From a virus, in IMG/VR virus record IMGVR_UViG_3300010883_000015, positions 1 to 64,000 of that record: 64,000 nt of DNA, one strand, 5' to 3'. Positions 6,453 to 62,369 of this stretch are shown here, in pieces. The notes below the pieces were generated by a model. The model ran no database searches and had not been told where the DNA came from. It saw nothing but the letters and a program-made list of their open reading frames with translations. A program made the translations under genes and the position numbers. Each line of letters begins with the position of its first letter. The stretch's first letter is position 1.

Positions 6453-6535
6453 TATAATACTCCAATATGTAAAATAAACTCAATTTCCTTTACATATAAT
6501 CTCCAATATGTAAAAGAAACGCGATTCCTTTTATG
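6453..6535. repeat. Tandem imperfect 41-bp repeat in methyltransferase leader
   Basis: Two adjacent copies (6453-6494 and 6495-6535). Each begins TATAAT-(A)-CTCCAATATGTAAAA and continues to a TTCCTTT block. On the minus strand each copy carries a GGAG, so the leader of the methyltransferase gene at 6450 has a duplicated ribosome-binding region. Confidence 0.7.
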
Positions 6536-14856: not shown

Positions 14857-15177
14857 ATGATCTTATTTAAACAATGGGAAGAGAAAGAAGAATACAGAAC
14901 CAATTCTGGGTTTATCAAGGCTAGAAAGTTTAAAGACTTAGCCTTAGTAGAAACTAATGATCAATTACAGCAAAGGTACTTAATGGTTGTTAAGAAATTT
15001 AAAATGTATCAAGGATCAATGCCTTCTGCTTCTCCATCTCCAAGTAGTTCTCTTATTGAAAGAAATAAATCTAAAAGAAACAAGAAGGTTGGAAGTATTT
15101 CTAGCCAACCAAAGCCAGAAGAAAAGAAGCCTGTAAGAAGAAAAAGTACACTACCGAAGCGACGATTAAAAAAATAA
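14857..15177 (+). CDS. Hypothetical neck-region protein
   Basis: A 106-aa protein starting one base after the adaptor stop. The first half is mixed; the second half is Pro/Ser then Lys/Arg-rich (KPEEKKPVRRKSTLPKRRLKK) and probably disordered. No family recognised. It is the last gene before the dyad element at 15201-15264. Confidence 0.6.
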   Translation: MILFKQWEEKEEYRTNSGFIKARKFKDLALVETNDQLQQRYLMVVKKFKMYQGSMPSASPSPSSSLIERNKSKRNKKVGSISSQPKPEEKKPVRRKSTLPKRRLKK

Positions 15178-15200
15178 TTTGATAGTTAAATAAAACATTT

Positions 15201-15264
15201 CTTATTGATACATGTATTAATTATAATTATATATAATTATATATAATTAATACATGTTCATATA
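15201..15264. promoter_or_regulatory. Dyad promoter element, copy A
   Basis: Starts CTTATTGATACATG and ends ATACATGTTCATATA. Arms 15210-15225 and 15242-15257 are perfect 16-bp inverted repeats. TTGATA (15205-15210), 17 nt, then TATATA reads as a sigma70-type promoter toward the dUTPase gene at 15334. Copies B (41112) and C (61873) share both ends and almost the same length. Confidence 0.6.
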
Positions 15265-15333
15265 ATAAAATTATATAACCACGCTTAATTAATATTCCTT
15301 CTTGGGCGTTTCTTTTTAATAAACAGGTGAATA

Positions 15334-15759
15334 ATGAAAATCAAAATCAAGAAAACTCATCCTAATGCTATTTTACCAAAATATGCAAAGGATGGTGATG
15401 CCTGTATGGATCTTTTTTGTGTAGACACAGAAATAGATCAATATGGTAATACCGTTTGTAATACAGGCGTTGCTATTGAAATACCAAAAGACTATGTGGG
15501 GTTAATTTTTCCAAGATCTTCAATAAGTAAAAATAGCTTATTTCTAAGAAACTCTGTGGGTGTTATTGATTCTGGCTATCGAGGTACAATATATGCTTCT
15601 TTTGGTTCTTATCAAGATGAGCCAAATAAAACTTATCAAGCTGGAGATCGAGTTTGTCAATTAATGATTATGCCGTTTCCTAAATTTGAATTTGAAGAAG
15701 TAGACACATTAAGCGAATCTGACCGTGGCATTGGTGGTTTCGGATCAACAGGAGAATAA
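15334..15759 (+). CDS. dut: dUTP diphosphatase
   Basis: A 141-aa trimeric dUTPase that hydrolyses dUTP to dUMP, keeping uracil out of phage DNA. All five motifs are visible: DACMDL (motif 1), PRSSISK (2), GVIDSGYRG (3), the AGDRVCQLMI segment (4) and RGIGGFGSTG (5). Full length. It is the first gene after the dyad promoter element, in an operon with the sugar dehydratase. Confidence 0.95.
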   Translation: MKIKIKKTHPNAILPKYAKDGDACMDLFCVDTEIDQYGNTVCNTGVAIEIPKDYVGLIFPRSSISKNSLFLRNSVGVIDSGYRGTIYASFGSYQDEPNKTYQAGDRVCQLMIMPFPKFEFEEVDTLSESDRGIGGFGSTGE

Positions 15760-39893: not shown

Positions 39894-40289
39894 TTATAAT
39901 TCAATTCTAATTTCTTCATAGTCTGAAATTTTACCCATTTTTTCAGCGGTATCATTTAATACAACCCCATTATTCCAACATTCAAAAGTAAGGTCGAAAG
40001 TAACGGATAAAGGGTTTAATCTTTCAAATTGAACTAATATTTTACATCTTTTATGTTTTTCATTTGTTTCAATATCAAAATGATCAAACGCCAATTGAAC
40101 TAATGCAAATTCTTGGTTTTCGTCTAATTTGTTAATAAATGTATCATCTAAAACTGAATAATAGTCTTTTTCTAAAGAGATATTGTTAGCATTTATTATT
40201 AATTCATTAGGCAATGCAATAAAAAGCTTCTTTCCATTTTTAGTAAAAAAAGAATTGAATAGATTATTATCTGACATAATTATTACCAA
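39894..40289 (-). CDS. Hypothetical protein
   Basis: A 131-aa protein, one of three small neighbouring genes. It overlaps the gene at 40267-40569 by 23 bases. No recognised domain; beta-strand-like pattern near the C-terminus (KCKRILVQFERL-type). Part of the minus-strand operon. Confidence 0.6.
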   Translation of the reverse strand: MVIIMSDNNLFNSFFTKNGKKLFIALPNELIINANNISLEKDYYSVLDDTFINKLDENQEFALVQLAFDHFDIETNEKHKRCKILVQFERLNPLSVTFDLTFECWNNGVVLNDTAEKMGKISDYEEIRIEL

Positions 40290-40569
40290 TAGATTCTACT
40301 GATGTAATCTCAATCAAATCAGTAGAGATCGTAACTTTAACATCTAATTCTTTTAGTAAATATAATATACACCAGTCTGGGCATAACCTTAATTTCTCAT
40401 TTGAGATTGAACAATAAGCACTAAGATTTGAAGGGTTTATTTGTAATAACCTAGCTAAATCTTTTGAGTTTTTAGTTGGATTCCTTAAGATCCAAAGATC
40501 TCTTAATTTTGTAAATATGTCATTTCTAGGTAATTTTATTTTTTTATCACATTCTGATATAGTCATCAT
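40267..40569 (-). CDS. Putative HTH regulator
   Basis: A 100-aa protein with KDLARLLQINPSNLSAYCS near residues 37-55, which reads as a helix-turn-helix (Cro/repressor type). It overlaps the downstream gene. It could control this minus-strand operon or the nearby dyad element (41112-41176); the link is inference. Confidence 0.55.
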   Translation of the reverse strand: MMTISECDKKIKLPRNDIFTKLRDLWILRNPTKNSKDLARLLQINPSNLSAYCSISNEKLRLCPDWCILYLLKELDVKVTISTDLIEITSVESIGNNYVR

Positions 40570-40582
40570 GTCTCCTTGTTGA

Positions 40583-40909
40583 TTACAATTTTATTTCTAT
40601 GGGGCTATCGGGTTTATTAATTAGACAACTTATATCTATTTGCATCTCGTCATCATTCTCAATTGATTTTTCCATATGAGTGTCAGTTCTAATAACTTTT
40701 TGACCGCTAAACATATTTTTAAAGTCTTTTTCTGATACCCAAAAAGAAATGGTGAACTTTATTGGTTTTCCAAATGTATAAGAAAAACCTCTATTTACAT
40801 TTAGATTAAAAGTAAATAATATAGATTGTTTGGATAAGTTTAAAGCGAATTCAAGAATTCGATTTTGTAGTTTTAATTTTGTATCAATAGTAGATATTTT
40901 TACATCCAT
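40583..40909 (-). CDS. Hypothetical protein
   Basis: A 108-aa protein, first of the minus-strand operon at 39.2-40.9 kb. The sequence alternates beta-strand-like stretches (ILFTFNLNVNRGFSYTFGKPIKFTISFWV). It shares general style with the 131-aa neighbour; both may be related small structural proteins. No function assigned. Confidence 0.55.
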   Translation of the reverse strand: MDVKISTIDTKLKLQNRILEFALNLSKQSILFTFNLNVNRGFSYTFGKPIKFTISFWVSEKDFKNMFSGQKVIRTDTHMEKSIENDDEMQIDISCLINKPDSPIEIKL

Positions 40910-41111
40910 AGGGCACCTCTGTCTTAATAATTAATTCTATACAATGGAACATTCCAATTTGTGTATATGTATATATAGCACATACAGAAGACAATTCAAT
41001 AAATTGTATGTTCTGTTGACATAGAATTAACAAGAAGGATTATATGTAAAGCTATTACTAATAGTAAACAACTATAATTACATCATTTATGTTAAATAAA
41101 ATGAAAAATAG

Positions 41112-41176
41112 CTTGTTGATACATGTATTAATATAATATAATTATAATTGAATTAATATTACATGTATCATGTTCA
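41112..41176. promoter_or_regulatory. Dyad promoter-like element, copy B
   Basis: Starts CTTGTTGATACATG; 11-bp perfect arms TGATACATGTA (41117-41127) and TACATGTATCA (41160-41170), ending ATGTTCA. This is the second copy of the element seen at 15201 and 61873. The genes on both sides are minus strand. The 293-nt gene-free stretch 40910-41202 otherwise holds only AT-rich sequence. Confidence 0.6.
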
Positions 41177-41202
41177 ATGTTCATTATTAACAACAAGGAT
41201 TA

Positions 41203-42549
41203 CTATTCTTGTACAATTGGAGCATATGAATAATAAGGGTGACTTGTTGGGAGCCTTACCCACGTAGCATATTTGTGAGCCAGATAACCTTCAATTAATT
41301 GGCGGTTTTCTTCGTTACATTCACCATTTACCAATATAACTTCGGCAATATCACCTTTAAAGAATTGTGAAGAGCCATTTTTACCCATAAGTAGCTCATT
41401 CGCATTATCAGCACCTGCTCCCATATATTTATGATTTATTTTGCTACCATCTAAAAATAATCCACCTGTTCCTGCGCTTAATTTATCAGTTATGGCTTCT
41501 GACATTTGATAAGTATTTGTAACGCCTGTAAAGCTTGCTGCATGCGAATTAGAATCACCCGTCATTGAAAGTCCGACAGTTGATACATATCCTAATGAAT
41601 AAGTTAGATCTTTCACTAATAATGGATTGTTCCCAACTGCCGGATCAGTAGGGCTATTAATTATAAATATACTATATCCATTTGTAATTAAATCTAAGGT
41701 CGCAGAGTCTGCTGCACTTAGAAAATCATTAGTTCCATCAAATTTAATAATAGAATAATTGTTTAAAGCATTTTTATATTCAACAGGTTCATTTCCTACT
41801 CCAGCAGCAGACATGGTATTACTATTTGCACTAGAGTCTGACCAAGCTGTAACTGTTGATCCAGTGACGGTGACTCCAAGATCTGCTTTATACCATGAAG
41901 CAATTGTTACTCCTGTAATATTGTTTGGATTCCATAAAGAAGGAGACGTTCCTGTTTGTGTATATTGAGAAACAGTAAATGTATCTAAATATACAGTTCC
42001 ATTTTTTACTTGAATCCCTGGAACTCCCCCTGTTAGTTTAGAATCATTAATATCGCCAACATTAGCAACAATAGTTGAGTCTAATAGCAATTGAAGAGTA
42101 ACTTGGTCTTTACCATAACACCTAAATTCCATTGTATGCTTTGCGCCCCTAGATATAGAGGTGTTTGGCATTGTAGCGTCTACTAGAATAGTTTCTTTAT
42201 TTCTAACTCTTCGACATATCTGTACTTTCCTTTGCTCTACATTTAATTTTGCAATATAACATGAGTAAGCACTTTGAGGGTCGCCTTGAAAATTAGTAGA
42301 TCTTGCTATAAGCCCTAATGTTCCACCCATAAATGGATGAGTTTCATTATAATTAGGCCAAGCATAATCAGTATATACCGAGTAGCTAGTTGCAGACATT
42401 GTTGTTGTTGTTCCAACAACTGTTAATAAATAATCTTCTGTTTGGGTGGTTAAGCCTGAACTTGCAACTAGGCATCTTCCGCTTAGAACACCTGTTGGGT
42501 CATTTATTGCTCCCCATCCTGACGTTCCTTTCCAATTACTTTTACTCAT
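41203..42549 (-). CDS. LamG/concanavalin-like surface protein
   Basis: A 448-aa protein. The start at 42549 has GAGGATATC upstream; an in-frame ATG 30 nt earlier lacks a site. The C-terminal half has the typical LamG/jelly-roll pattern (SIIKFDGTNDFLS, IAEVILVNGECNEENRQLIEGYLAHKY). The N-terminal half has a second similar segment (ISRGAKHTMEFRCYGK ... VYLDTFTVSQY). It is probably a carbohydrate-binding appendage or fibre protein. The gene is coupled (ATGA) to a 27-aa Cys-rich peptide. Confidence 0.7.
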   Translation of the reverse strand: MSKSNWKGTSGWGAINDPTGVLSGRCLVASSGLTTQTEDYLLTVVGTTTTMSATSYSVYTDYAWPNYNETHPFMGGTLGLIARSTNFQGDPQSAYSCYIAKLNVEQRKVQICRRVRNKETILVDATMPNTSISRGAKHTMEFRCYGKDQVTLQLLLDSTIVANVGDINDSKLTGGVPGIQVKNGTVYLDTFTVSQYTQTGTSPSLWNPNNITGVTIASWYKADLGVTVTGSTVTAWSDSSANSNTMSAAGVGNEPVEYKNALNNYSIIKFDGTNDFLSAADSATLDLITNGYSIFIINSPTDPAVGNNPLLVKDLTYSLGYVSTVGLSMTGDSNSHAASFTGVTNTYQMSEAITDKLSAGTGGLFLDGSKINHKYMGAGADNANELLMGKNGSSQFFKGDIAEVILVNGECNEENRQLIEGYLAHKYATWVRLPTSHPYYSYAPIVQE

Positions 42550-42629
42550 GATATCCTCACATAATTTACCCCATGACAATCACAAGGCTCGCATCCACAG
42601 ACTAGGCACTCATATCTAAAAAATAGCAT
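42546..42629 (-). CDS. 27-aa cysteine-rich peptide, coupled
   Basis: A minus-strand frame of 27 codons ending in an ATGA overlap with the LamG-like gene. The peptide contains ECLVCGCEPCDCHG, five Cys in eleven residues (C-x2-C-x-C-x2-C-x-C), which could bind metal. The ribosome site AAAAGG is only 1 nt from the ATG, so initiation is doubtful; the coupling argues for translation. Confidence 0.4.
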   Translation of the reverse strand: MLFFRYECLVCGCEPCDCHGVNYVRIS

Positions 42630-51433: not shown

Positions 51434-52123
51434 ATGTTCACTATAAAAGAAATTTTCGCGACACTTCAAGGTGAAGGATCAAGATCAGGAACTCCTGCGA
51501 TCTTTGTAAGGTTTGCTGGTTGTAACCTATGGTCGGGACAAGATCATCTTCGAGAGAAAGGAAAAGGTCACTGTGCTTTATGGTGTGATACTGATTTTTT
51601 TCGTGGAGATAAATATGAAGGTTCTGAATTATTAAACCGCCTCAATAGATTAACCTCTAAGTGGCAAGATAAGATGGTTGTATTTACAGGGGGAGAGCCT
51701 TGCTTACAATTAAAGAAGCCCGAAGCCGTAGGATTAATTGAAAGATTGCTAAATACAGGATGGGTGGTTGCAATAGAAACAAATGGAACGATATCTGCTG
51801 AAGAGTGTCAAGTGCTAAATATATTAAATGATCACCCGAATGGTCATATTACGGTTAGTCCGAAACCTCTTATGGATAAAAGTAAACGTCACAGTATTGA
51901 GCATATTAAATTAAGATTTGGTACAGATTTAAAAATAATCATCCCAACAGTGTTACCTTTAAATGAATTTCAAGAGTTAAATTTTGAACATTTCTTCTTT
52001 CAACCAATGGATCTACAGGACGGGACTTCTGGATTAAGTTCAGTAGAAGAAACCATTGAATTCTGCATAACTTATGGATGGAGGCTATCTTGCCAAACAC
52101 ACAAATTTCTAAACCTACAATAG
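51434..52123 (+). CDS. queE: 7-carboxy-7-deazaguanine synthase
   Basis: A 229-aa radical-SAM enzyme that converts 6-carboxytetrahydropterin to 7-carboxy-7-deazaguanine, the ring-making step of the 7-deazaguanine pathway. Seen: FATLQGEGSRSGTPAIFVRFAGCNLW, the iron-sulfur cysteines (AGC then HCALWCDTDF), FTGGEPCLQ and VAIETNGT. The Cys spacing is C-x16-C-x3-C, an insertion form, and the last gap is one longer than the usual C-x2-C. Overlaps folE. Confidence 0.93.
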   Translation: MFTIKEIFATLQGEGSRSGTPAIFVRFAGCNLWSGQDHLREKGKGHCALWCDTDFFRGDKYEGSELLNRLNRLTSKWQDKMVVFTGGEPCLQLKKPEAVGLIERLLNTGWVVAIETNGTISAEECQVLNILNDHPNGHITVSPKPLMDKSKRHSIEHIKLRFGTDLKIIIPTVLPLNEFQELNFEHFFFQPMDLQDGTSGLSSVEETIEFCITYGWRLSCQTHKFLNLQ

Positions 52124-52674
52124 ATGAAGTAGAAAAAGCATTTAAAACTATATTGAAATATGTAGGCGAAGATCCAGAAAGAGAAGGCTTAAAAGAAACG
52201 CCTAAACGAGTAGCTAGATCATTAAAAGAATGGTTTTCAGGATATGACATAGATCCTAAATCTGTATTATCAACAACGTTTGAAGAAGTTGAAAATTACA
52301 ACGAGATTGTAGTTTTAAGAAATATTAGGCTAGAAAGTCATTGTGAGCATCACATGTGTCCTATTATTGGAACGGCAACGGTAGCTTACTTGCCTAGAAA
52401 TAAAGTTGTAGGAATTTCAAAATTAGCTAGAGTAGTAGATGCATTCGCGAAGCGTTATCAAATTCAAGAAGTTATGACAAAGCAAATAGCAGACACCATA
52501 CAAGAAGTGTTAAATCCTAAAGGTGTTGCAGTTATAATTAAAGCACAGCATTTCTGTATTGGAACAAGGGGAATTCATAAGCATGAAAGTGATATGATTA
52601 CCTCCTGTATGCTTGGTGTATTTATGGAAGATAGCACAGCCAGACTAGAACTTATGCATTTAATAAAAGATTAA
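52078..52674 (+). CDS. folE: GTP cyclohydrolase I
   Basis: A 198-aa enzyme that makes dihydroneopterin triphosphate from GTP, the first pathway step. The zinc and active-site motifs are present: ESHCEHHMCP (about 86-95) and AQHFCIGTRGI (about 161-171), with DAFAKRYQIQEVMT. It overlaps queE by 46 bases, so the two are translated in close coupling. Highly similar to the standard FolE pattern. Confidence 0.95.
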   Translation: MEAILPNTQISKPTIDEVEKAFKTILKYVGEDPEREGLKETPKRVARSLKEWFSGYDIDPKSVLSTTFEEVENYNEIVVLRNIRLESHCEHHMCPIIGTATVAYLPRNKVVGISKLARVVDAFAKRYQIQEVMTKQIADTIQEVLNPKGVAVIIKAQHFCIGTRGIHKHESDMITSCMLGVFMEDSTARLELMHLIKD

Positions 52675-52683
52675 GGATACAGT

Positions 52684-53484
52684 ATGCTTTCAGTATTATC
52701 AGCAAGTGGTGGAATGGATAGCACCTCTCTTTTGATGAGACTCTTAGGAGAGGGTCATGAAGTCCATGCTATTTCATTTTATTATGGTCAAACCCATTCT
52801 TTAGAATTGATTAGGCTTAAAGATAATATCACTTATCTTAGTGAAAATGGATACAAAGTAGTTCATAAAGTTATTAATATAAAATCTATCATGTCCTCCT
52901 TTCATAGCGCTCTGACTGGCTTAATTGATATGCCAGAAGGGCATTATGAAGAAGACAACATGAAAGATACTGTTGTTCCGAATAGGAATGCCATTTTTAG
53001 TTCTATCATATATGGTTATGCATTATCAGAAGCAAATAAACGAGGATGTAAAGCACAGGTTGCTCTTGGTGTTCATAGCGGGGATCATGCAATATATCCT
53101 GATTGCAGACCTGAATTCTATGACTATTTATTTATGGCTTTTGATTTTGGAAATTGGAATTCTGAAAGCGTTAAATTGTATCTTCCTTATTTAAACGGAG
53201 ATAAAGAAAGTATTCTAGTAGATGCTATCCATTATTGTAAGAAGTTAAGACTTGATTTTGATACCGTATTTGCGAACACAAACACAGGTTATGATCCAGA
53301 TGAAAAAGGAAGATCTAGCGGGAAAACTGGGGCAGATATAGAGCGCATATTAGCCTTTCACGCTATTGGAAGAACGGATCCGATAGAATATGTGGACGGA
53401 TGGGAAAGTGCCCTAAAGCACGCGATATCAACGCAAGAAAGACATGATACAGATAAAGAACAGCATTCAAATTCAGAGTCTTAA
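52684..53484 (+). CDS. queC: QueC-like protein without zinc cysteines
   Basis: A 266-aa ATP-pyrophosphatase-type protein. Seen: SGGMDSTSLL (residues 8-17), VVPNRN (97-102) and DHAIYPDCRPEF (134-145), all standard for QueC, the preQ0 synthase. The C-terminal zinc motif (C-G-x-C-x2-C-x2-R) is replaced by S212-G-K-T215-G-A-D218-I-E-R221, and the first Cys position by G202. The framework R/E/A-F residues remain. It may be a modified QueC or a paralogue with another activity, such as the decarboxylase DpdL proposed for dDG phages. Confidence 0.85.
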   Translation: MLSVLSASGGMDSTSLLMRLLGEGHEVHAISFYYGQTHSLELIRLKDNITYLSENGYKVVHKVINIKSIMSSFHSALTGLIDMPEGHYEEDNMKDTVVPNRNAIFSSIIYGYALSEANKRGCKAQVALGVHSGDHAIYPDCRPEFYDYLFMAFDFGNWNSESVKLYLPYLNGDKESILVDAIHYCKKLRLDFDTVFANTNTGYDPDEKGRSSGKTGADIERILAFHAIGRTDPIEYVDGWESALKHAISTQERHDTDKEQHSNSES

Positions 53485-53489
53485 TATCC

Positions 53490-53828
53490 ATGTCTTTATT
53501 CAAGAATAAACCATGGGGTTATGAGTTATTATTTGCTCATAGCGAATATTATGTTGGTAAGATTCTTTTCATAAAAAAAGGACATAGGCTGTCACGTCAA
53601 TACCATGAACAAAAAGATGAAACTATATTTGTTCTTAATGGAAAGCTTAATTTGGTTTTAAATAAATCAGAAGATCTTATTATTTTAGAACAAGGAGACT
53701 CTTACAGAATAAATCCACTTATAATTCACAGGATGGAGGCCAAAGAAGGAGACGTTAAATTAGTGGAAGTATCTACTCCTGAACTCAATGATATAGTCAG
53801 ATTAGAGGATGATTATGGAAGAGTTTGA
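53490..53828 (+). CDS. Cupin protein (mannose-6-phosphate isomerase type II-like)
   Basis: A 112-aa single cupin. The fold motif is clear: KPWGYELLF, RLSRQYHEQKDETIFVLNGK, and YRINPLIIHRMEAKE. Cupins of this kind often stand in nonulosonic acid and nucleotide-sugar loci. It opens the sugar cassette within the 7-deazaguanine gene cluster and overlaps the NeuA-like gene. Confidence 0.78.
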   Translation: MSLFKNKPWGYELLFAHSEYYVGKILFIKKGHRLSRQYHEQKDETIFVLNGKLNLVLNKSEDLIILEQGDSYRINPLIIHRMEAKEGDVKLVEVSTPELNDIVRLEDDYGRV

Positions 53829-54486
53829 TGATTACATATTTCTAATACCAGCGAGAAAGGGATCGAAAGGGGTTCCATTTAAAAATAGGAAACTTTTTGA
53901 CTACACAGCTAAAATAATACCTGATTCAATTAAGCATAAAGTCTACGTCTCAACTGATGATGAGTTTTTTATTGAAAAGTGTAAAGAATTTGGATTTAAT
54001 TATATAGAAAGAGACCCCTTGTTTGCACAAGATGAAACTACAACAAAGGACATGGTTAATAATTTCATTGATAATAATAAAATAGTAAATAAAACCATTA
54101 TTTTATTATATTTAACGTATCCAGAAAGAAAATGGATTGATGTTTTAGGTGCTAAAAAGTTCTATGAGTTAAAAAAATGTCAATCTTTGCTATGTAAGAA
54201 AAAAACTATTGTATCTCCTTATCTAATCCTTTATGATTTAGGAGATGATTTTGGAGAGCAGGTAATTCCACACAACCTTTGTAGGAGACAAGAATACAGA
54301 GAATGTTTTGAAATTAGCCACTTCATAAGTATATTTAGTGTCCAGAATTTAAAAGATTTAAACGTGAATTTATATAATTCAAAAACTAAATTTATGATTA
54401 TTAAAAATGCAATAGATATAGATACAACTAATGACTTAAGGGTATTTTATGACAAAAGTAAAAATAATAGCAGAGATCGGGATTAA
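53815..54486 (+). CDS. CMP-nonulosonate cytidylyltransferase, NeuA-like
   Basis: A 223-aa protein. I choose the ATG at 53815, which has AGAGG 6 nt upstream; 53809 is in the same frame. LIPARKGSKGVPFKNRK at the N-terminus is the CTP-binding motif of acylneuraminate cytidylyltransferases. VSTDDEFF and NAIDIDTTNDL are further motifs. It would activate the NeuB product as a CMP-sugar. Its stop overlaps neuB. Confidence 0.85.
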   Translation: MEEFDDYIFLIPARKGSKGVPFKNRKLFDYTAKIIPDSIKHKVYVSTDDEFFIEKCKEFGFNYIERDPLFAQDETTTKDMVNNFIDNNKIVNKTIILLYLTYPERKWIDVLGAKKFYELKKCQSLLCKKKTIVSPYLILYDLGDDFGEQVIPHNLCRRQEYRECFEISHFISIFSVQNLKDLNVNLYNSKTKFMIIKNAIDIDTTNDLRVFYDKSKNNSRDRD

Positions 54487-55273
54487 CCATAATGGTGATA
54501 TTAATATTGCCAAAGAATTGATTGATGCTTCAATACTTGCTGGTTGTGATTTTGCTAAATTTCAAAAAAGAACACCAGATATTTGTGTTCCTGAACATCA
54601 GAAATCTAAATTAAGGGAGACTCCTTGGGGTGAAATTCCTTATATAGAATATAAGAAAAAGATTGAATTTGAAAAAGAAGAGTATGAAGAATTGTTCGAT
54701 TATGTAGAAGATCTACCTATTGAAATATTTGCCTCTGTATGGGATAAGCCTTCTGTTGATTTTATGTCTAGATATACTCCATTTTCAAAAATAGGATCAG
54801 CCTTAATAACAGATTTGGAATTATGTAAATATGCTAGAAAGAAATCAGAATTTCTTATTATCTCAACAGGCATGAGTACTGAATATGAAATTGAAGATTG
54901 CATAAATGCCTGTAATCCTGACGTTGTAATGCACACGAATTCTGCTTATCCTTCGCCAGTTAATGAATTAAATCTAAATTACATTCATTGGCTAAAGGAA
55001 AAATGGCCTGAGCACGCCATTGGATATAGTGGTCATGAATATGGCTTGGTTACTACTTTTGCAGCAGTTGCAATGGGTTGCACTTGGGTAGAACGACATA
55101 TTACGCTAGAAAGAACTATGTGGGGAAGTGATCAAATGGCATCGATAGAGCCACAAGGATTTACTAAATTAGTAAAAGGGATAAGAGACATAGAAAAAGC
55201 TTGTATTTTACCCCCACAAGCGCGGGTCTTATTTCCTAGTGAAACCTCTAAAAGAGCAAGTTTAAGGAAATAA
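54449..55273 (+). CDS. N-acetylneuraminate (nonulosonate) synthase, NeuB-like
   Basis: A 274-aa TIM-barrel synthase that condenses phosphoenolpyruvate with an N-acyl hexosamine to give a sialic-acid-like sugar. Seen: IIAEIGINHNGD (6-17), FAKFQKRTPD, GYSGHEYGL and ERHITLERTMWGSDQMASIEP. It lacks the usual C-terminal SAF (antifreeze-like) domain, so it is shorter than the standard ~340 aa. Substrate (Neu5Ac or another nonulosonate) is not determined. Confidence 0.88.
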   Translation: MTKVKIIAEIGINHNGDINIAKELIDASILAGCDFAKFQKRTPDICVPEHQKSKLRETPWGEIPYIEYKKKIEFEKEEYEELFDYVEDLPIEIFASVWDKPSVDFMSRYTPFSKIGSALITDLELCKYARKKSEFLIISTGMSTEYEIEDCINACNPDVVMHTNSAYPSPVNELNLNYIHWLKEKWPEHAIGYSGHEYGLVTTFAAVAMGCTWVERHITLERTMWGSDQMASIEPQGFTKLVKGIRDIEKACILPPQARVLFPSETSKRASLRK

Positions 55274-55274
55274 G

Positions 55275-56288
55275 ATGAAAGCATTACATTTATATGCCTC
55301 TAAGGCACAGTTTAATTCTGGTGATTTCTTTCTAGGCCCTGCAACTAAATGGAAATTTGAAAAAATAATTGATTCAAAAGTAGATTGGGAAACGCTAGAC
55401 ATTAGACAATCTTTCTCAAAAGGAACTATCAATTATATAAATTCGTTTGATTATTTAATTGTTGGTGGGGGTGGATTGATTCTTCCTGATAGCAACCCAA
55501 ATGAAGTATCTTGCTGGCAATGGGCTATATCCAAAGAATTATTAGAACTCATAACGGCAAAAATATATGTAATGGCTATTGGTTATAATTTGTTTTTTGA
55601 ACAAGACATGTCCATGCCTCATCGAGAAATAGAAGATTCTATACCAAGAAGAAAAACAATATTTAAATCTAATATAGAAACCTTAATAAGGAAAAGTCAT
55701 TATTTTAGTATGAGGCATAAAGGGGACATAATTCAATTAAGGAAAATTGTTGATACTGAGTATCATTCAAAAATAGAATTTATGTTTTGCCCTGTTATTG
55801 ATTATGTTAAAAATAAGTATCTTCTTTCATTCAATTCAGGAGATTATTATACTTTTGAAATTAAAGATGATCGTCCCAACAGAAGATATAAAGGAACATC
55901 TAAAGAGGAATTTTATAGTAAATTAAAACAATTTATAGAATATTTAATATCTGAAAACAAGCCTGTTGCTATCATGTCTCATGATGGTAGTCGTTCCTTT
56001 TATGATTATTTAAAATCTAAATCTATAAATATTCCACTTTTAGACAATACAACCGCAGATGAGATTAAAATAATTACAAATTATTCAAAAGTTAAAAAAT
56101 TATATTGTATGGCAGGTCATAGTCAAATGACAGGTCACGCTCTCGGAATAGATATGTTTAGTTTAATAAGCCACAACAAATTAAAATACTTTCTTGAAGA
56201 CATAAAGAGAACAATACCTAAAGATGGTGAATATGTGTCTGAATTAACTTTAAGTAATTTAATTAAAGGATATAATGATGAATCTTGA
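55275..56288 (+). CDS. Polysaccharide pyruvyl transferase-like protein
   Basis: A 337-aa protein with AAGGAAATAAG upstream. FDYLIVGGGGLILPDS and VMAIGYNLFFEQ near residues 55-120 and FMFCPVIDY fit the polysaccharide pyruvyltransferase (CsaB/WcaK) family, which adds pyruvate ketals to sugars. Part of the sugar cassette. Similarity is of moderate strength. Confidence 0.68.
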   Translation: MKALHLYASKAQFNSGDFFLGPATKWKFEKIIDSKVDWETLDIRQSFSKGTINYINSFDYLIVGGGGLILPDSNPNEVSCWQWAISKELLELITAKIYVMAIGYNLFFEQDMSMPHREIEDSIPRRKTIFKSNIETLIRKSHYFSMRHKGDIIQLRKIVDTEYHSKIEFMFCPVIDYVKNKYLLSFNSGDYYTFEIKDDRPNRRYKGTSKEEFYSKLKQFIEYLISENKPVAIMSHDGSRSFYDYLKSKSINIPLLDNTTADEIKIITNYSKVKKLYCMAGHSQMTGHALGIDMFSLISHNKLKYFLEDIKRTIPKDGEYVSELTLSNLIKGYNDES

Positions 56289-56949
56289 ACAAGTTAAAAA
56301 AATATTTTCGAGAAAAAAGAACAGTAGAAACCCTATGATGAAATTATATAATGTAGACGAATTTTATCAGGATATAAATAAATTATTTCATTCGTATGAA
56401 AGTCTCGATATTTTAGATATTGGAGGGGGGAGAGGTCGCACATTTGATACTGTCAATTCCAATTATCATGTGTTTGATTTAAATCATCATAATAGTAAAA
56501 ATTTTATTAAAGGCGATATTACTGATCCTAAATTAAGCGTAAACAAGCAATTTGATATAATTTTTACTAAAGATACTTTTGAGCATATCTTAAACCCTTG
56601 GGAGGCCACAGATAACATCAAAAAACTTCTTAAAGAAAAAGGGGTCTTTATCTGTATAGCACCCTTTTCTTGGCGATTTCATCCTTCTCCATATGATGCT
56701 TATAGATATTCTCATCAAGGATTAAAATATATTTTTGAACATAAAAATAATATTAAAGAAATAGAGTCAGGATATATTTATGCCATTGATAAAACAAAAG
56801 GAACTTGGCCTAATAAATATGACTCTTGGATTGCTCCAGATGGAGTATATAAAGATTGCGTTTCTGCTTTTTATATAGGGATTAAAGATTCAAATTATAT
56901 TTTCAATAAAAATATTATTGTAGCCGATACTTCTCTAAATCATGATTAA
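56275..56949 (+). CDS. SAM-dependent methyltransferase
   Basis: A 224-aa class I methyltransferase. LDILDIGGGRGRTFD (about 43-57) is motif I; FDIIFTKDTFEHILNPWE follows. The target could be a sugar, as suggested by the cassette. Overlaps both neighbours by a few bases. Confidence 0.78.
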   Translation: MMNLEQVKKIFSRKKNSRNPMMKLYNVDEFYQDINKLFHSYESLDILDIGGGRGRTFDTVNSNYHVFDLNHHNSKNFIKGDITDPKLSVNKQFDIIFTKDTFEHILNPWEATDNIKKLLKEKGVFICIAPFSWRFHPSPYDAYRYSHQGLKYIFEHKNNIKEIESGYIYAIDKTKGTWPNKYDSWIAPDGVYKDCVSAFYIGIKDSNYIFNKNIIVADTSLNHD

Positions 56950-57622
56950 AAAAACAATGAATTGTGTTATTTGTAATGGTTCAAGTTTTTTATATCGTGA
57001 ACATCTTTTATTAAAAGAAGAAATATATAAATGTTCTTCTTGCTTTTATCATTTTGTAAATTGTTCAAATTTTAATGAAAAAGATATATTTGATCAGCAG
57101 AATAATAATTCTGGAAGTTTTGGTGGGAATTTTTCCAGAAATTCTAAGTATTTATCTTTATTGAAAAAACAAACAAATATTAAAAGCATATTAGAAATTG
57201 GAACACCTGATAATTACGGATTTTTAGAAATGGTTTTTAAAGAATTTGGAAAAACCATTGAAATAAATTCTCATGACTTAATAAAGAATAATTTTCCTTC
57301 TTATATTAATTTTTATTCCAATAAAGATGAATTGCTAAGAAAAGAAATTGATCTCTTGTTTTGTATTCATACTTTAGAACATATCCCAACTAATCATCTT
57401 TTAGAATTCATTTCATTTTGTAAATCTGTATCAAAAAAATACATATTTGAAGTACCTTGCTGTGAAACCCTTACAAGAGTATTAAAAAGTTCCACTCAGC
57501 CTCATTATAGTTTCTTTTCTGAATTATCATTAAAGGTTCTTTTTGAAGAGGATTTGATTCTAAATAAAACAAATGAAGTTATTAGATTTACTAATTTGGA
57601 AGAATTAAATATATTAATATAA
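56942..57622 (+). CDS. Methyltransferase with N-terminal zinc ribbon
   Basis: A 226-aa protein. N-terminal CVIC ... CSSCF (about 8-35) resembles the zinc ribbon of sugar C-methyltransferases. The core ILEIGTPDNYGFLEMV and IDLLFCIHTLEHI is a class I methyltransferase. Overlaps the preceding gene by 8 nt. The motif I GTPDNYG is unusual (G-x-G replaced by G-T-P). Confidence 0.68.
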   Translation: MIKKTMNCVICNGSSFLYREHLLLKEEIYKCSSCFYHFVNCSNFNEKDIFDQQNNNSGSFGGNFSRNSKYLSLLKKQTNIKSILEIGTPDNYGFLEMVFKEFGKTIEINSHDLIKNNFPSYINFYSNKDELLRKEIDLLFCIHTLEHIPTNHLLEFISFCKSVSKKYIFEVPCCETLTRVLKSSTQPHYSFFSELSLKVLFEEDLILNKTNEVIRFTNLEELNILI

Positions 57623-57643
57623 TTATATTAAAATGAAAGAATA

Positions 57644-57754
57644 ATGAAAAAGCTAAATATAGGCCCAGTCTCTTCTACTTCTTATTTTAAAAATCTTGCA
57701 GACTAGGAAGCAAGAGAGCATTATAGAAGTATGTATATAGAGGTTATTAAATGA
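57644..57754 (+). pseudogene. 36-codon frame interrupted by one TAG
   Basis: From ATG 57644 the frame reads MKKLNIGPVSSTSYFKNLAD, then TAG (57704-57706), then EAREHYRSMYIEVIK and TGA, overlapping the next start (ATGA at 57751). Without the TAG it would be a 36-aa gene with a typical coupling junction. It is either a recently broken small gene, a real 20-aa peptide, or a read-through product. Confidence 0.4.
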
Positions 57755-58080
57755 TTATTTATGTAGACATAGATGAAACGATCTGCAATTCTCCTGAAAA
57801 TAGAGACTATGCAAAAGCAGAACCAATTTACGCACATATTAAGGAGATAAACAGGCTATATCAACAAGGTAATACAATTATATATTGGACAGCAAGAGGG
57901 ACTGGCTCTGGTATAGATTGGAGATATATTACCGAAAATCAATTTAAAGAATGGGGCGTTCAATACCATCAATTAAAGTTTGGTAAGCCCATTTATGATC
58001 TGTTCATAGACGACAAAAATATAAATAGCGAGGTATTTTTTAATGGAGCTTTCGAGTTTAAAAAACAAGCACAAATATGA
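57751..58080 (+). CDS. HAD-superfamily phosphatase-like protein
   Basis: A 109-aa protein with AGAGGTTATTAA upstream. The HAD nucleophile motif YVDIDET (residues 4-10), the TARG motif (about 48-51) and FIDDKN near residue 90 are typical of small HAD phosphatases found in sugar biosynthesis loci. It may dephosphorylate a nonulosonate phosphate. Its end overlaps the next gene by 38 bases. Confidence 0.78.
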   Translation: MIIYVDIDETICNSPENRDYAKAEPIYAHIKEINRLYQQGNTIIYWTARGTGSGIDWRYITENQFKEWGVQYHQLKFGKPIYDLFIDDKNINSEVFFNGAFEFKKQAQI

Positions 58081-58741
58081 AGACGTATGGGTTATCGGTT
58101 CAGGATCTTCTCTTGATTTTATAGATAAATCATTTTTTGAAAACAAAATAACCGTTGGAGTTAATAGGTCTTGTTGTTATTTTGAATGCGATTATGTGGT
58201 TGCAAAAGATCTTAGAGGATTAGAAGAAATAGAAGAAAACACTTTAAATAAAAATATTCAAAAAATATATTCTTTATTTAATTGTGGGAATACTACATCA
58301 ACAAGAAATGACGAAAATAAAGATAAAGATATTGTTTATTTCCATCACCCACAAAATGGGAACCCTAGGACAGAAATCATTGGAACGACCAATAGTAATG
58401 GAGAAGACTTAATTATTGTTTCTTTATCAACAATAACTAGTGCAATTCATATTGCGGCCTATATGGGCGCTAAGAATATAATTATATGTGGTCATGATTG
58501 TGGGAAACTAAATAATAATATTTCAATAAAAGGATATAATTCTATTATCCCGCCCGTACAGGGAGCTAATGAATATGTTGAATGGTTAAACCGCATAGAA
58601 AATCATACTATAAAAGTATGTAAAAAACTTAAAGAAGTATACAATTGCAATATACATTCATTAAATCCATTCATAAATTTTAATTTAGAAGGATTTAAAT
58701 TTGAGTCAAATCCAAAAATAAACGAAAGAAGGTTTAGTTAA
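58043..58741 (+). CDS. DUF115/GT42-like putative sugar transferase
   Basis: A 232-aa protein with GAGG 8 nt upstream of the start. The N-terminal VWVIGSGSSLDFIDK...NR pattern and the later STITSAIHIAAYMGAKNIIICGHDCG are like DUF115 (motility accessory factor) and GT42 sialyltransferases, families that transfer nonulosonic acids. This would complete a make-activate-transfer set with NeuB and NeuA. Assignment is by pattern, not by close match. Confidence 0.55.
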   Translation: MELSSLKNKHKYEDVWVIGSGSSLDFIDKSFFENKITVGVNRSCCYFECDYVVAKDLRGLEEIEENTLNKNIQKIYSLFNCGNTTSTRNDENKDKDIVYFHHPQNGNPRTEIIGTTNSNGEDLIIVSLSTITSAIHIAAYMGAKNIIICGHDCGKLNNNISIKGYNSIIPPVQGANEYVEWLNRIENHTIKVCKKLKEVYNCNIHSLNPFINFNLEGFKFESNPKINERRFS

Positions 58742-59101: not shown

Positions 59102-59560
59102 ATGGGATATCAAAGTACAAAAATATTTTCAGGATATAGCACAGCCTTCAGGCAGTGGAAAGCAACTCATTCTCATTGTAAATTTATGCATGGATATGCA
59201 TTAAGTTTTAAAGTATGGTTTGAGGGAGACATAGACGAAAGAAATTGGGTAGCAGATTTCGGGTCTTTTAAAAAGAATGGAATTAAAGACAAATTAAGTA
59301 ATATATTTGATCACACTACCATCATCGCTAACGATGACCCTCTTTTGGCAGACTTTGAAAACCTGCATAACAAAGGTGCAATTCAGATTATTATAATGGA
59401 AGATGTGGGGTGTGAAGTATTTGCTAAATGTGTATCAGATATGATAAATACAATAATAAGTAAAGAAACCAATGGAAGGGTGCAAGTCAAAAGAGTTGAA
59501 TGTTTTGAAGGCTCTACAAGCAATAGTGCAATTTATGAGGCTAATAATGAGATCAAATAA
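59102..59560 (+). CDS. queD: 6-carboxytetrahydropterin synthase family, QueD-like
   Basis: A 152-aa protein with AAGGAGAATTTT upstream. It converts dihydroneopterin triphosphate to 6-carboxytetrahydropterin in the 7-deazaguanine pathway. Seen: FSGYSTAFRQWKATHSHCKFMHGYAL. Cys26 is the catalytic Cys and H30 a zinc ligand. The classic HGH is HGY32 here, and the first His is replaced while H23 and H25 are present, so the zinc site differs. VADFGSFK...DHTTI and FEGSTSNSA are also typical. Confidence 0.85.
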   Translation: MGYQSTKIFSGYSTAFRQWKATHSHCKFMHGYALSFKVWFEGDIDERNWVADFGSFKKNGIKDKLSNIFDHTTIIANDDPLLADFENLHNKGAIQIIIMEDVGCEVFAKCVSDMINTIISKETNGRVQVKRVECFEGSTSNSAIYEANNEIK

Positions 59561-60475: not shown

Positions 60476-60952
60476 ATGACTGATGATGAAAAATATGAGT
60501 CTCATGGGAATTCTTCGCAATTAAAATCCCTTGGGAATGCCAAAACTAAATACCCAACAACGCCAGACGAGGCAGAGTTAGAGAAAATACCGTGGAAAGG
60601 AGAAGGCTTTAGTTACGTTACTTGGGAATGCCCTGAATATACTTGTGCTTGTCCCAAAACAGGCCAACCTGACTTTGCAACAGTCTATATACAATACATA
60701 CCAGAAGCATATATTGTAGAAAGTAAATCATTGAAAATATATTTATTCTCTTTCCGTAATTATGGTCATTTCCATGAAGTTGGGATTGAAAGAATTGCTA
60801 AAGATATATTTGATTTTATACAACCTAAATTCTTAAGAGTAGTTGGAGACTTCAATAAGAGAGGAGGGATATCAATTGTCCCTATTTCAGAATTTGGAGA
60901 TCTTTCTTTATCTAGCTCTATACCTATTCCTAAAATAACATATGGCTCTTAA
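60476..60952 (+). CDS. queF: PreQ0 reductase, QueF-like
   Basis: A 158-aa unimodular QueF, which reduces preQ0 to preQ1 with NADPH. Seen: CACPKTGQPDF (Cys59 as nucleophile, Asp66), VESKSLKIYLFSFRN (81-95) and HFHE (H100, E101). These match the known catalytic residues at the right spacing. Its presence points to preQ1, not preQ0, as the base inserted into DNA. It overlaps dpdA in a TAATG junction. Confidence 0.93.
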   Translation: MTDDEKYESHGNSSQLKSLGNAKTKYPTTPDEAELEKIPWKGEGFSYVTWECPEYTCACPKTGQPDFATVYIQYIPEAYIVESKSLKIYLFSFRNYGHFHEVGIERIAKDIFDFIQPKFLRVVGDFNKRGGISIVPISEFGDLSLSSSIPIPKITYGS

Positions 60953-61842
60953 TGCCTATTAAATTCCATAATTTAGTTTCTTTTGCATTATTTGGAGATC
61001 GAATTAATGAAGGCTTGCATCCAGAATGGAATACTATGTTGGATAGCGGGGGATTTACAAACTTTGTAAGAGGTAAAGATATTGTTACCTTGAAAGATTA
61101 TTGTATGTATCTTAAAACCGAAAAGGTAAGGTTTTGGGAATATATGGCTCTCGACCGAATTGGGGATAAAAAGATCAGCGGGGAGTATCTTAATAAAATG
61201 ATAAGCGTCGGTCTTGCTCCTGTTCCAATTTATCAGAGAGGAGAAGGAAGTGCCAAAGAATTAACTAAGATGATAGAAGCAAATAGATTAATTGCTATTG
61301 GTGGAATCTCTCAAAACCTTTCAGCCAAAGCCGAGCAAGAGTACCTTCGTAACGTAATGAGGGTGGTAAGAAAAGTTCCGACTGCAAAGGTTCATCTTCT
61401 TGGGGTAGGTGTTAGAGAAGCCAAGCTATATTGCCCTTATAGTTCAGATAGTAGCACTTGGGCTAGTCATTTTAGATTTGGGATTATTCGTCTTTGGCAT
61501 CAAGGTAAATTGTTAGACTTCCAAAAACATAAGACTGCTCAACACGCCAAGAGATATGTTAGGCCGAATCCAAATTACACACGATGTTTAGCTAAATATA
61601 GCCTGACTTGGAATGATCTATATGATAATGCCGATTGGTCTAAGCCTGAAAGTAAATTAAGCATAGCAGCAACTAGGTCTTGGATAAGGCAATCTAGGTC
61701 TTTGTATCGAAAAGATAGCAGATATTTATTAGCAAGTTTACCAATAAATGTTCAAGCGATTAAAGAGGCTTGGAATTATGAAAGAATTTCATGGGGTTGG
61801 CCTAAGTCTAAATTCATAAGTATACCATCTGAAAAGAAATAA
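60952..61842 (+). CDS. dpdA: DNA guanine transglycosylase, DpdA
   Basis: A 296-aa TGT-like enzyme of the DpdA family, which exchanges guanine in DNA for a 7-deazaguanine. Seen: MLDSGGFTNFVRGKD (about 29, the DSGGF of transglycosylases), YMALDRIGDK, LAPVPIYQRG, IAIGGIS, KVHLLGVGV and SSDSSTWAS. The stop codon of queF overlaps the start. The subfamily is not assigned here. Confidence 0.9.
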   Translation: MPIKFHNLVSFALFGDRINEGLHPEWNTMLDSGGFTNFVRGKDIVTLKDYCMYLKTEKVRFWEYMALDRIGDKKISGEYLNKMISVGLAPVPIYQRGEGSAKELTKMIEANRLIAIGGISQNLSAKAEQEYLRNVMRVVRKVPTAKVHLLGVGVREAKLYCPYSSDSSTWASHFRFGIIRLWHQGKLLDFQKHKTAQHAKRYVRPNPNYTRCLAKYSLTWNDLYDNADWSKPESKLSIAATRSWIRQSRSLYRKDSRYLLASLPINVQAIKEAWNYERISWGWPKSKFISIPSEKK

Positions 61843-61872
61843 TTGTTATATTGTTGTCAATTGTTTCTTGTT

Positions 61873-61937
61873 CTTATTGATACATGATCATGTATTGATA
61901 TAATATATATATAATATTATTTATACATGTTCATATA
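61873..61937. promoter_or_regulatory. Dyad promoter element, copy C
   Basis: Starts CTTATTGATACATG and ends ATACATGTTCATATA, with a perfect palindrome ATACATGATCATGTAT at 61880-61895. TTGATA (61877-61882), 16 nt, TATAAT (61899-61904) is a good sigma70-type promoter toward 62052. It shares both ends with copy A (15201), and nearly the same span. Confidence 0.6.
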
Positions 61938-61976
61938 AGATATTTATCATAAATGTAATAATTAATACTTAAGCAG

Positions 61977-62040
61977 TAATATAAATATATTTTAAAAGAC
62001 CCTATGAATAATATAAATATATTTTAAAAGACCCTATGAA
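61977..62040 (+). repeat. Perfect 32-bp tandem duplication upstream of gene at 62052
   Basis: Two identical adjacent copies (61977-62008 and 62009-62040), each starting TAATATAAATATATTTTAAA and ending GACCCTATGAA. The second copy runs directly into AGGAGATCAA, the ribosome site of the gene at 62052. It duplicates a TATA-rich promoter-like box. Confidence 0.85.
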
Positions 62041-62051
62041 AGGAGATCAAA

Positions 62052-62369
62052 ATGGATTGTAGGTGGGCAACAACTGAAAGTATTAAAGAACTTAATTTCT
62101 GGTCTTCATCTTTTAAAATGAAAAGATACTTTACTGATAGATTAATTTCAATATTAGACCCTGAGGGTTATCATCTCTGTATTGGAGTTGTTGTTTACTC
62201 TAAAGGGAAGGGAGATTCTCTTGTTGATTACTATAGAACTCAATGGATGCTGAAATTAAAAGATCAAAAAAGTCCCCACATGGACTATATGGATATAGAT
62301 ATTAAAGAATTTAAAAAATTAACTCTTTCTAAGCCCGCCCCTTCTGATAAATTTAAATATAAAACCTAG
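62052..62369 (+). CDS. Hypothetical protein
   Basis: A 105-aa protein with a strong AGGAG. MDCRWATTESIKELNFW...; probably alpha/beta. No family. First gene after dyad element C and the tandem duplication, so likely an independently regulated transcript. Confidence 0.6.
   Translation: MDCRWATTESIKELNFWSSSFKMKRYFTDRLISILDPEGYHLCIGVVVYSKGKGDSLVDYYRTQWMLKLKDQKSPHMDYMDIDIKEFKKLTLSKPAPSDKFKYKT

Follow-up and report, generated by a model that had tools for sequence, protein, structure and literature searches.

An AT-Rich Element at Three Gene-Cluster Borders

Between a 106-aa gene that ends at 15177 and, downstream of it, the dUTPase gene (15334–15759, plus strand) lies one of three copies of an AT-rich element found in the window, by which we mean the whole 64,000-nucleotide stretch of DNA analyzed here. 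Copy A (15201–15264, plus strand; 64 bp, 89% AT) lies in the gap 15178–15333. Copy B (41112–41176, plus strand; 65 bp, 83% AT) lies in the gap 40910–41202 between two minus-strand neighbors, a structural gene ending at 41203 and an operon starting at 40909 that encodes a helix-turn-helix (HTH) protein, and copy C (61873–61937, plus strand; 65 bp, 85% AT) occupies the gap 61843–62051, with a queuine tRNA-ribosyltransferase-like gene on one side (end at 61842) and the next gene, which begins at 62052, on the other. Measured along transcription, the distance from the last stop codon to the start of the copy is 23 nt for A, 26 nt for B, and 30 nt for C, and all three copies are noncoding and stand at borders of gene clusters; the element sequence is thus found at several intergenic sites and in no coding region. 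BLAST of the whole record with copy A bore out the three copies located in the first-pass annotation, and the operon-border position claimed for them holds for 3/3, each being in a gap between gene clusters. The same search returned only the three copies and their inverted self-matches, with no fourth copy in the 80,695-bp record and none in its last 16.7 kb. Between copy C and the gene at 62052, a 30-bp unit (AATATAAATATATTTTAAAAGACCCTATGA) occurs twice in tandem (61978–62039).

The window covers the initial 64 kb of this 80,695-bp IMG/VR record, and the sequences of its terminase, portal, head protein, and head–tail adaptor genes point to an uncultured tailed phage as the source; no lysogeny genes were recognized in it. 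Terminase and portal match GenBank phages only at about 20–30% identity and the capsid protein has no match among GenBank phages, closer kin being confined to IMG/VR (terminase up to 68% and capsid up to 65–69% identity). Longer IMG/VR records of these kin, located via terminase alignment, portal protein alone, and capsid alignment, were retrieved for comparison with the window genome; terminase or primase as a single-protein query recovered no kin. The phage carries several DNA methyltransferase genes, and its radical SAM, GTP cyclohydrolase I, QueC-, QueD-, and queuine transferase-like genes (51434–53484, 59102–59560, and 60952–61842) probably form a 7-deazaguanine DNA-modification set. A sugar gene cluster at 53809–58741 (cytidylyltransferase, pyruvyltransferase-like, methyltransferase, and sialyltransferase-like) has no counterparts in most of the compared relatives, and a pair encoding a MoxR-type AAA ATPase and a von Willebrand factor A protein (locus L006, 5769–7040 and 8510–10018) is found in several relatives too.

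The window contains exactly three occurrences of the string TTGATACATG, and the pattern TTGATACATG-N30..45-ACATG, picked post hoc, was observed three times against 0.007 expected in composition-matched random genomes. When each gap was dinucleotide-shuffled separately, the similarity between A and B and that between A and C were reached in 0/500 shuffles, and that between B and C in 8/500. Dyad symmetry was reached in 0/500 shuffles for A, 67/500 for B, and 20/500 for C; hence, of the AT-rich centers and inverted arms described at first pass, the arms and the AT-rich core stand, while the dyad is above AT-rich chance in A and not clearly so in B or C.

Conserved Half-Sites around a Variable Center

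In the aligned copies both ends are conserved, each with 10–14 identical bases whose arrangement is fixed, and the center varies in length and sequence. All copies start C-T-T-(A/G)-T, as had been noted (CTTATTGATACATG in A and C, CTTGTTGATACATG in B), and their ends are common or related (TACATGTTCATATA in A and C, TACATGTATCATGTTCA in B). Judged by sequence, what is conserved is most plausibly a pair of inverted half-sites that face outward from a variable AT-rich center, with an outward consensus of TACATGT(A)TCA(T)ATAAG (~16 nt) and CATG-to-CATG spacings of 42 bp in A, 40 bp in B, and 43 bp in C. The arms appear to be one half-site in two slightly different forms, inverted: on the minus strand, A-left (15201–15216, outward TACATGTATCAATAAG), B-left (41112–41127, outward TACATGTATCAACAAG), and C-left (61873–61888, outward ATCATGTATCAATAAG, inside the dyad TGATACATGATCATGTATTGA); on the plus strand, A-right (15251–15266, outward TACATGTTCATATAAT), C-right (61924–61939, outward TACATGTTCATATAAG), and B-right (41160–41176, TACATGTATCATGTTCA, its outward arm also given as TACATGTATCATGTTC), the most divergent arm. 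The internal dyad of the left arm is spaced differently in A and B than in C. When the 80.7-kb record was scored genome-wide for the half-site, the top five matches were five of the six arms; degenerate extra half-sites at 6534 and 5653 were not above the null and were rejected.

Promoter-Like Sequences and Alternative Explanations

Copy C contains a good sigma-70-like promoter match (TTGATA-16-TATAAT, 61877–61904, plus strand; 11/12, with TGn before the −10) that faces the gene at 62052. The match in copy B (TTGATA-15-TATAAT, 41116–41142, plus strand; 11/12) lies on the strand opposite to both neighboring genes and would drive transcription antisense into the 3′ end of gene 41203–42579; a better promoter match for the HTH operon (TTTACT-18-TATAAT, 41039–41068, minus strand) is found ~45 bp beyond copy B. 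Copy A offers as −10 just a weak TATATA at 17 nt. The first-pass reading of A and C as TTGATA-N16/17-TATAAT is therefore exact for C but weak for A, and the broader description of a promoter element is supported in part, for C, with B wrongly directed and A weak. Because the −10 register differs in each copy and B faces the wrong way, the three copies do not share a promoter character, and, with no promoter register in common, it is both arms that unite them.

It could nevertheless be argued that the copies are ordinary host sigma-70 promoters of similar sequence that lack a regulator of their own, with −35 regions as the arms and the symmetry an AT by-product. The 11/12 scores of C, with its extended −10, and of B, with a 15-nt spacer, agree with this explanation, as do the same-strand genes at which A and C point and the TTGACA-N15-TATAAG promoters used by relatives; however, A lacks an acceptable in-register −10, B is misdirected, the right arm is also conserved although a promoter has no need of it, and two such elements need not have 10–14 identical bases in common, making this an unlikely account. 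It is quite improbable that the element acts in RNA, as a 3′-end hairpin (terminator, stabilizer, or processing site) after the upstream gene, despite the placement of 3/3 copies 23–30 nt past a stop codon along transcription, the 16-bp stem into which copy A folds, and the ease with which symmetry would explain the flipped orientation at B. Folding z-scores are −4.1/−3.6 for A and −0.9 to −2.3 for B and C, which barely fold better than shuffles; no copy has a terminator-like hairpin, that is, a stable stem with a T-run, whereas ordinary GC-rich terminators are present elsewhere in the phage; and there is no Rfam match. Since CTTRT at the outer ends and the unpaired TTCA have been retained and RNA folding is clearly above chance for A only, it is the sequence that is conserved, not merely pairing.

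Replication-origin or partition sites, offered as an alternative at first pass, would fit the AT-rich cores and the ParB-like protein encoded 1.4 kb from C, but we found no supporting evidence for such a role and consider it highly improbable: GC skew shows no switch, being unchanged at A and C and dipping at B in step with gene direction, no iteron array is present at the copies, methyltransferase and nuclease families are also among the matches of the ParB-like domain, and a far better repeat array lies elsewhere, at 77.9–78.05 and 80.1–80.5 kb. Chance likeness of AT-rich gaps, or descent from a small mobile repeat of which the copies are remnants, is in our view very unlikely; the 83–89% AT content, the B–C similarity and the B and C dyads near shuffled levels, and the post hoc choice of pattern lean that way, yet 10–14 identical end bases recur in a fixed arrangement, the A–B and A–C similarities were never matched by shuffling, and the record has no further copy. 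A protelomerase site is a single long palindrome accompanied by a protelomerase gene; the sites here are three and imperfect, and no protelomerase match was found among the proteins scanned, which represent part of the ORFs.

The repeat array comprises ten copies of the palindrome ACTAATTAGT (L006 13888–14041 and 16098–16486; record 77888–78041 and 80098–80486), all within two noncoding gaps and intermixed with TTGTTACG/CGTAACAA repeats, whose orientation is reversed from one gap to the other; it makes a far stronger candidate for an origin or operator array than copies A–C do. A 726-bp gap also holds a long AT-rich palindromic, partly repeated tract (L006 8180–8297; record 72180–72297), with symmetry above local shuffles and without CATG arms.

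Related Phages and the HTH Protein

None of the relatives carries the sequence, contrary to the expectation of conservation raised at first pass: an exact two-arm scan of IMG/VR gave no copy in related viruses, BLAST of 15 related records did not find the element, and a relaxed two-arm search allowing two mismatches gave no match in 1.76 Mb of related loci. Two exact-pattern IMG/VR matches (L007 and L008) lie inside genes and were set aside as chance. The element is most likely private to this phage, its nearest relatives not having it, and conservation is not demonstrable. Because those relatives are just about 68–70% identical in the compared proteins and several have promoter-dyads of their own, the absence weakens the claim and does not refute it.

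Three relatives (G017, G020, and G022) contain repeated intergenic promoter-dyads of the form TTGACA...TAAC-N9-GTTA-TAAT (TAAC-N9-GTTATAAT), with dyad counts of 37, 12, and 32 against 16, 1, and 3 expected; in examples at G017 66892, G020 3762, and G022 77043 the dyad runs into the −10. Similar repeats are present in G019. In the window genome TAAC-N9-GTTA is at chance level (19 vs. 19.6 expected). The TAAC-type dyad adjoins the orthologue of the window's HTH gene, upstream in G003 and G008 and just downstream in G017, with chance expectations per gap of 0.005, 0.0002, and 0.05, respectively. The two gaps of G001 and G016 that match element positions hold AT-rich or other dyads only. The G001 dyad at the position of A (GATATTGATCATCAATATC) is within shuffle chance (77/400), and the AT-rich dyad that precedes the HTH operon in G016 is of marginal symmetry (18/400 shuffles); although the latter scores above shuffles as a homologue of copy A or B, we rejected that homology because the alignments are gappy and AT-rich and the arms are missing.

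The HTH operon, just upstream of which copy B lies, begins with a 108-aa gene of no family (40583–40909, minus strand), about 200 bp from copy B, followed by the gene for a 100-aa Cro/C1-like HTH protein (40267–40569, minus strand) with orthologues in seven relatives (G003, G006, G008, G009, G016, G017, and G022). For the orthologues there are weak matches to the HTH_3, P22_Cro, and repressor families (best E about 0.0005–0.006) and to LexA-like models, the window protein by itself has no family match, its single-sequence structural model is poor (pLDDT 63), and a fold search with that model gave no match passing E 0.001, the weak ones including XRE-type HTH proteins. The first-pass assignment of an HTH protein at 40267 therefore keeps a Cro/C1-type look that is weak but consistent across orthologues, although the window member alone matches no family. 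In the recognition-helix region the window protein reads NPSNLSAY and that of G016, its nearest HTH relative, NASALSAY, whereas the other orthologues are mostly xPQA/V; the window genome and G016, both with this altered region, are without the TAAC-type operator. By position and analogy, the Cro/C1-like protein beside copy B is the best candidate for the binder, an identification that we hold only tentatively and think somewhat unlikely to be correct.

A Putative Multi-Copy Operator

We hypothesize, at what we judge to be about an even chance, that the element serves a phage regulator as a multi-copy operator specific to this phage. The evidence agrees with the first-pass proposal of a phage-specific regulatory element placed at operon borders, and the relatives, which seem from their sequences to have the same design with another sequence beside the HTH gene, would lend it support; three copies are few, and AT-richness inflates their similarity. 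The half-sites, 40–43 bp apart, would lie on nearly the same helix face and flank a low-melting AT-rich core, and a spacing near four helical turns would suit a protein that bridges the two across a core prone to melting. By occupying both half-sites, a DNA-binding protein of the phage may control transcription starting in or beside the element, either blocking RNA polymerase or helping the core to open, so that the sign of regulation is itself conjectural. Three junctions could be coordinated by such an operator: at A the dUTPase gene and tail cluster, at B the HTH operon, and at C the cluster of small genes downstream; with the HTH protein as binder, copy B would be its autoregulatory site. 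At copy C, the dyad of the left half-site overlies both the −35 and the extended −10, and the right half-site is expected near +15, a layout that would be that of classical repression and that is not claimable for A or B.

An unlikely but more far-reaching scenario is that one small Cro/C1-like protein runs a multi-site regulon, the operator and the recognition helix having changed together between close relatives; the two operator forms, doubtful to the same degree, would be TAAC-N9-GTTA in most of them and the paired CATG-type element in this phage. If true, operator replacement across the lineage would be a ready set for studying regulon-wide operator change. The operator reading would also locate the sites from which this uncultured 80-kb phage is chiefly controlled, the comparison with relatives would suggest a regulator–operator pair with changed specificity, and the phage family with promoter-dyads beside the HTH gene supplies test sequences for binding assays.

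Comparison with Known Phage Regulatory Sites

Repeated phage operators are known from lambda-type systems. The TAAC-N9-GTTA dyads of G017, G020, and G022 resemble the element in being multi-copy, intergenic, and overlapped by sigma-70 signals, but they have another sequence, consist of a single 17-bp dyad inside the promoter, and occur in far more copies. T4-type middle promoters combine a phage activator box with a −10; A-right and C-right likewise place a phage-specific box near a −10-like sequence, whereas the boxes of the element come in inverted pairs, and no MotA homologue was found among the proteins scanned. Cro of phage PY54 binds the 16-bp palindromic OR3 (PMC4488713). Cro/C1-type operators share with the putative operator a short palindromic site by a small-HTH gene, overlap with promoter sequences, and a specificity that changes fast between relatives, but here paired half-sites ~42 bp apart stand at three distant operon borders. 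Mycobacteriophage L5 has more than twenty single 13-mer operators or stoperators oriented with transcription (PMC9283540); like the element, they repeat a single site particular to the phage in its intergenic gaps and have asymmetric half-sites, whereas here there are three inverted pairs, with the one at B not oriented along transcription. Repeated phage-specific operators are already known, and the element, read as an operator, is another such case, of a fairly ordinary kind.
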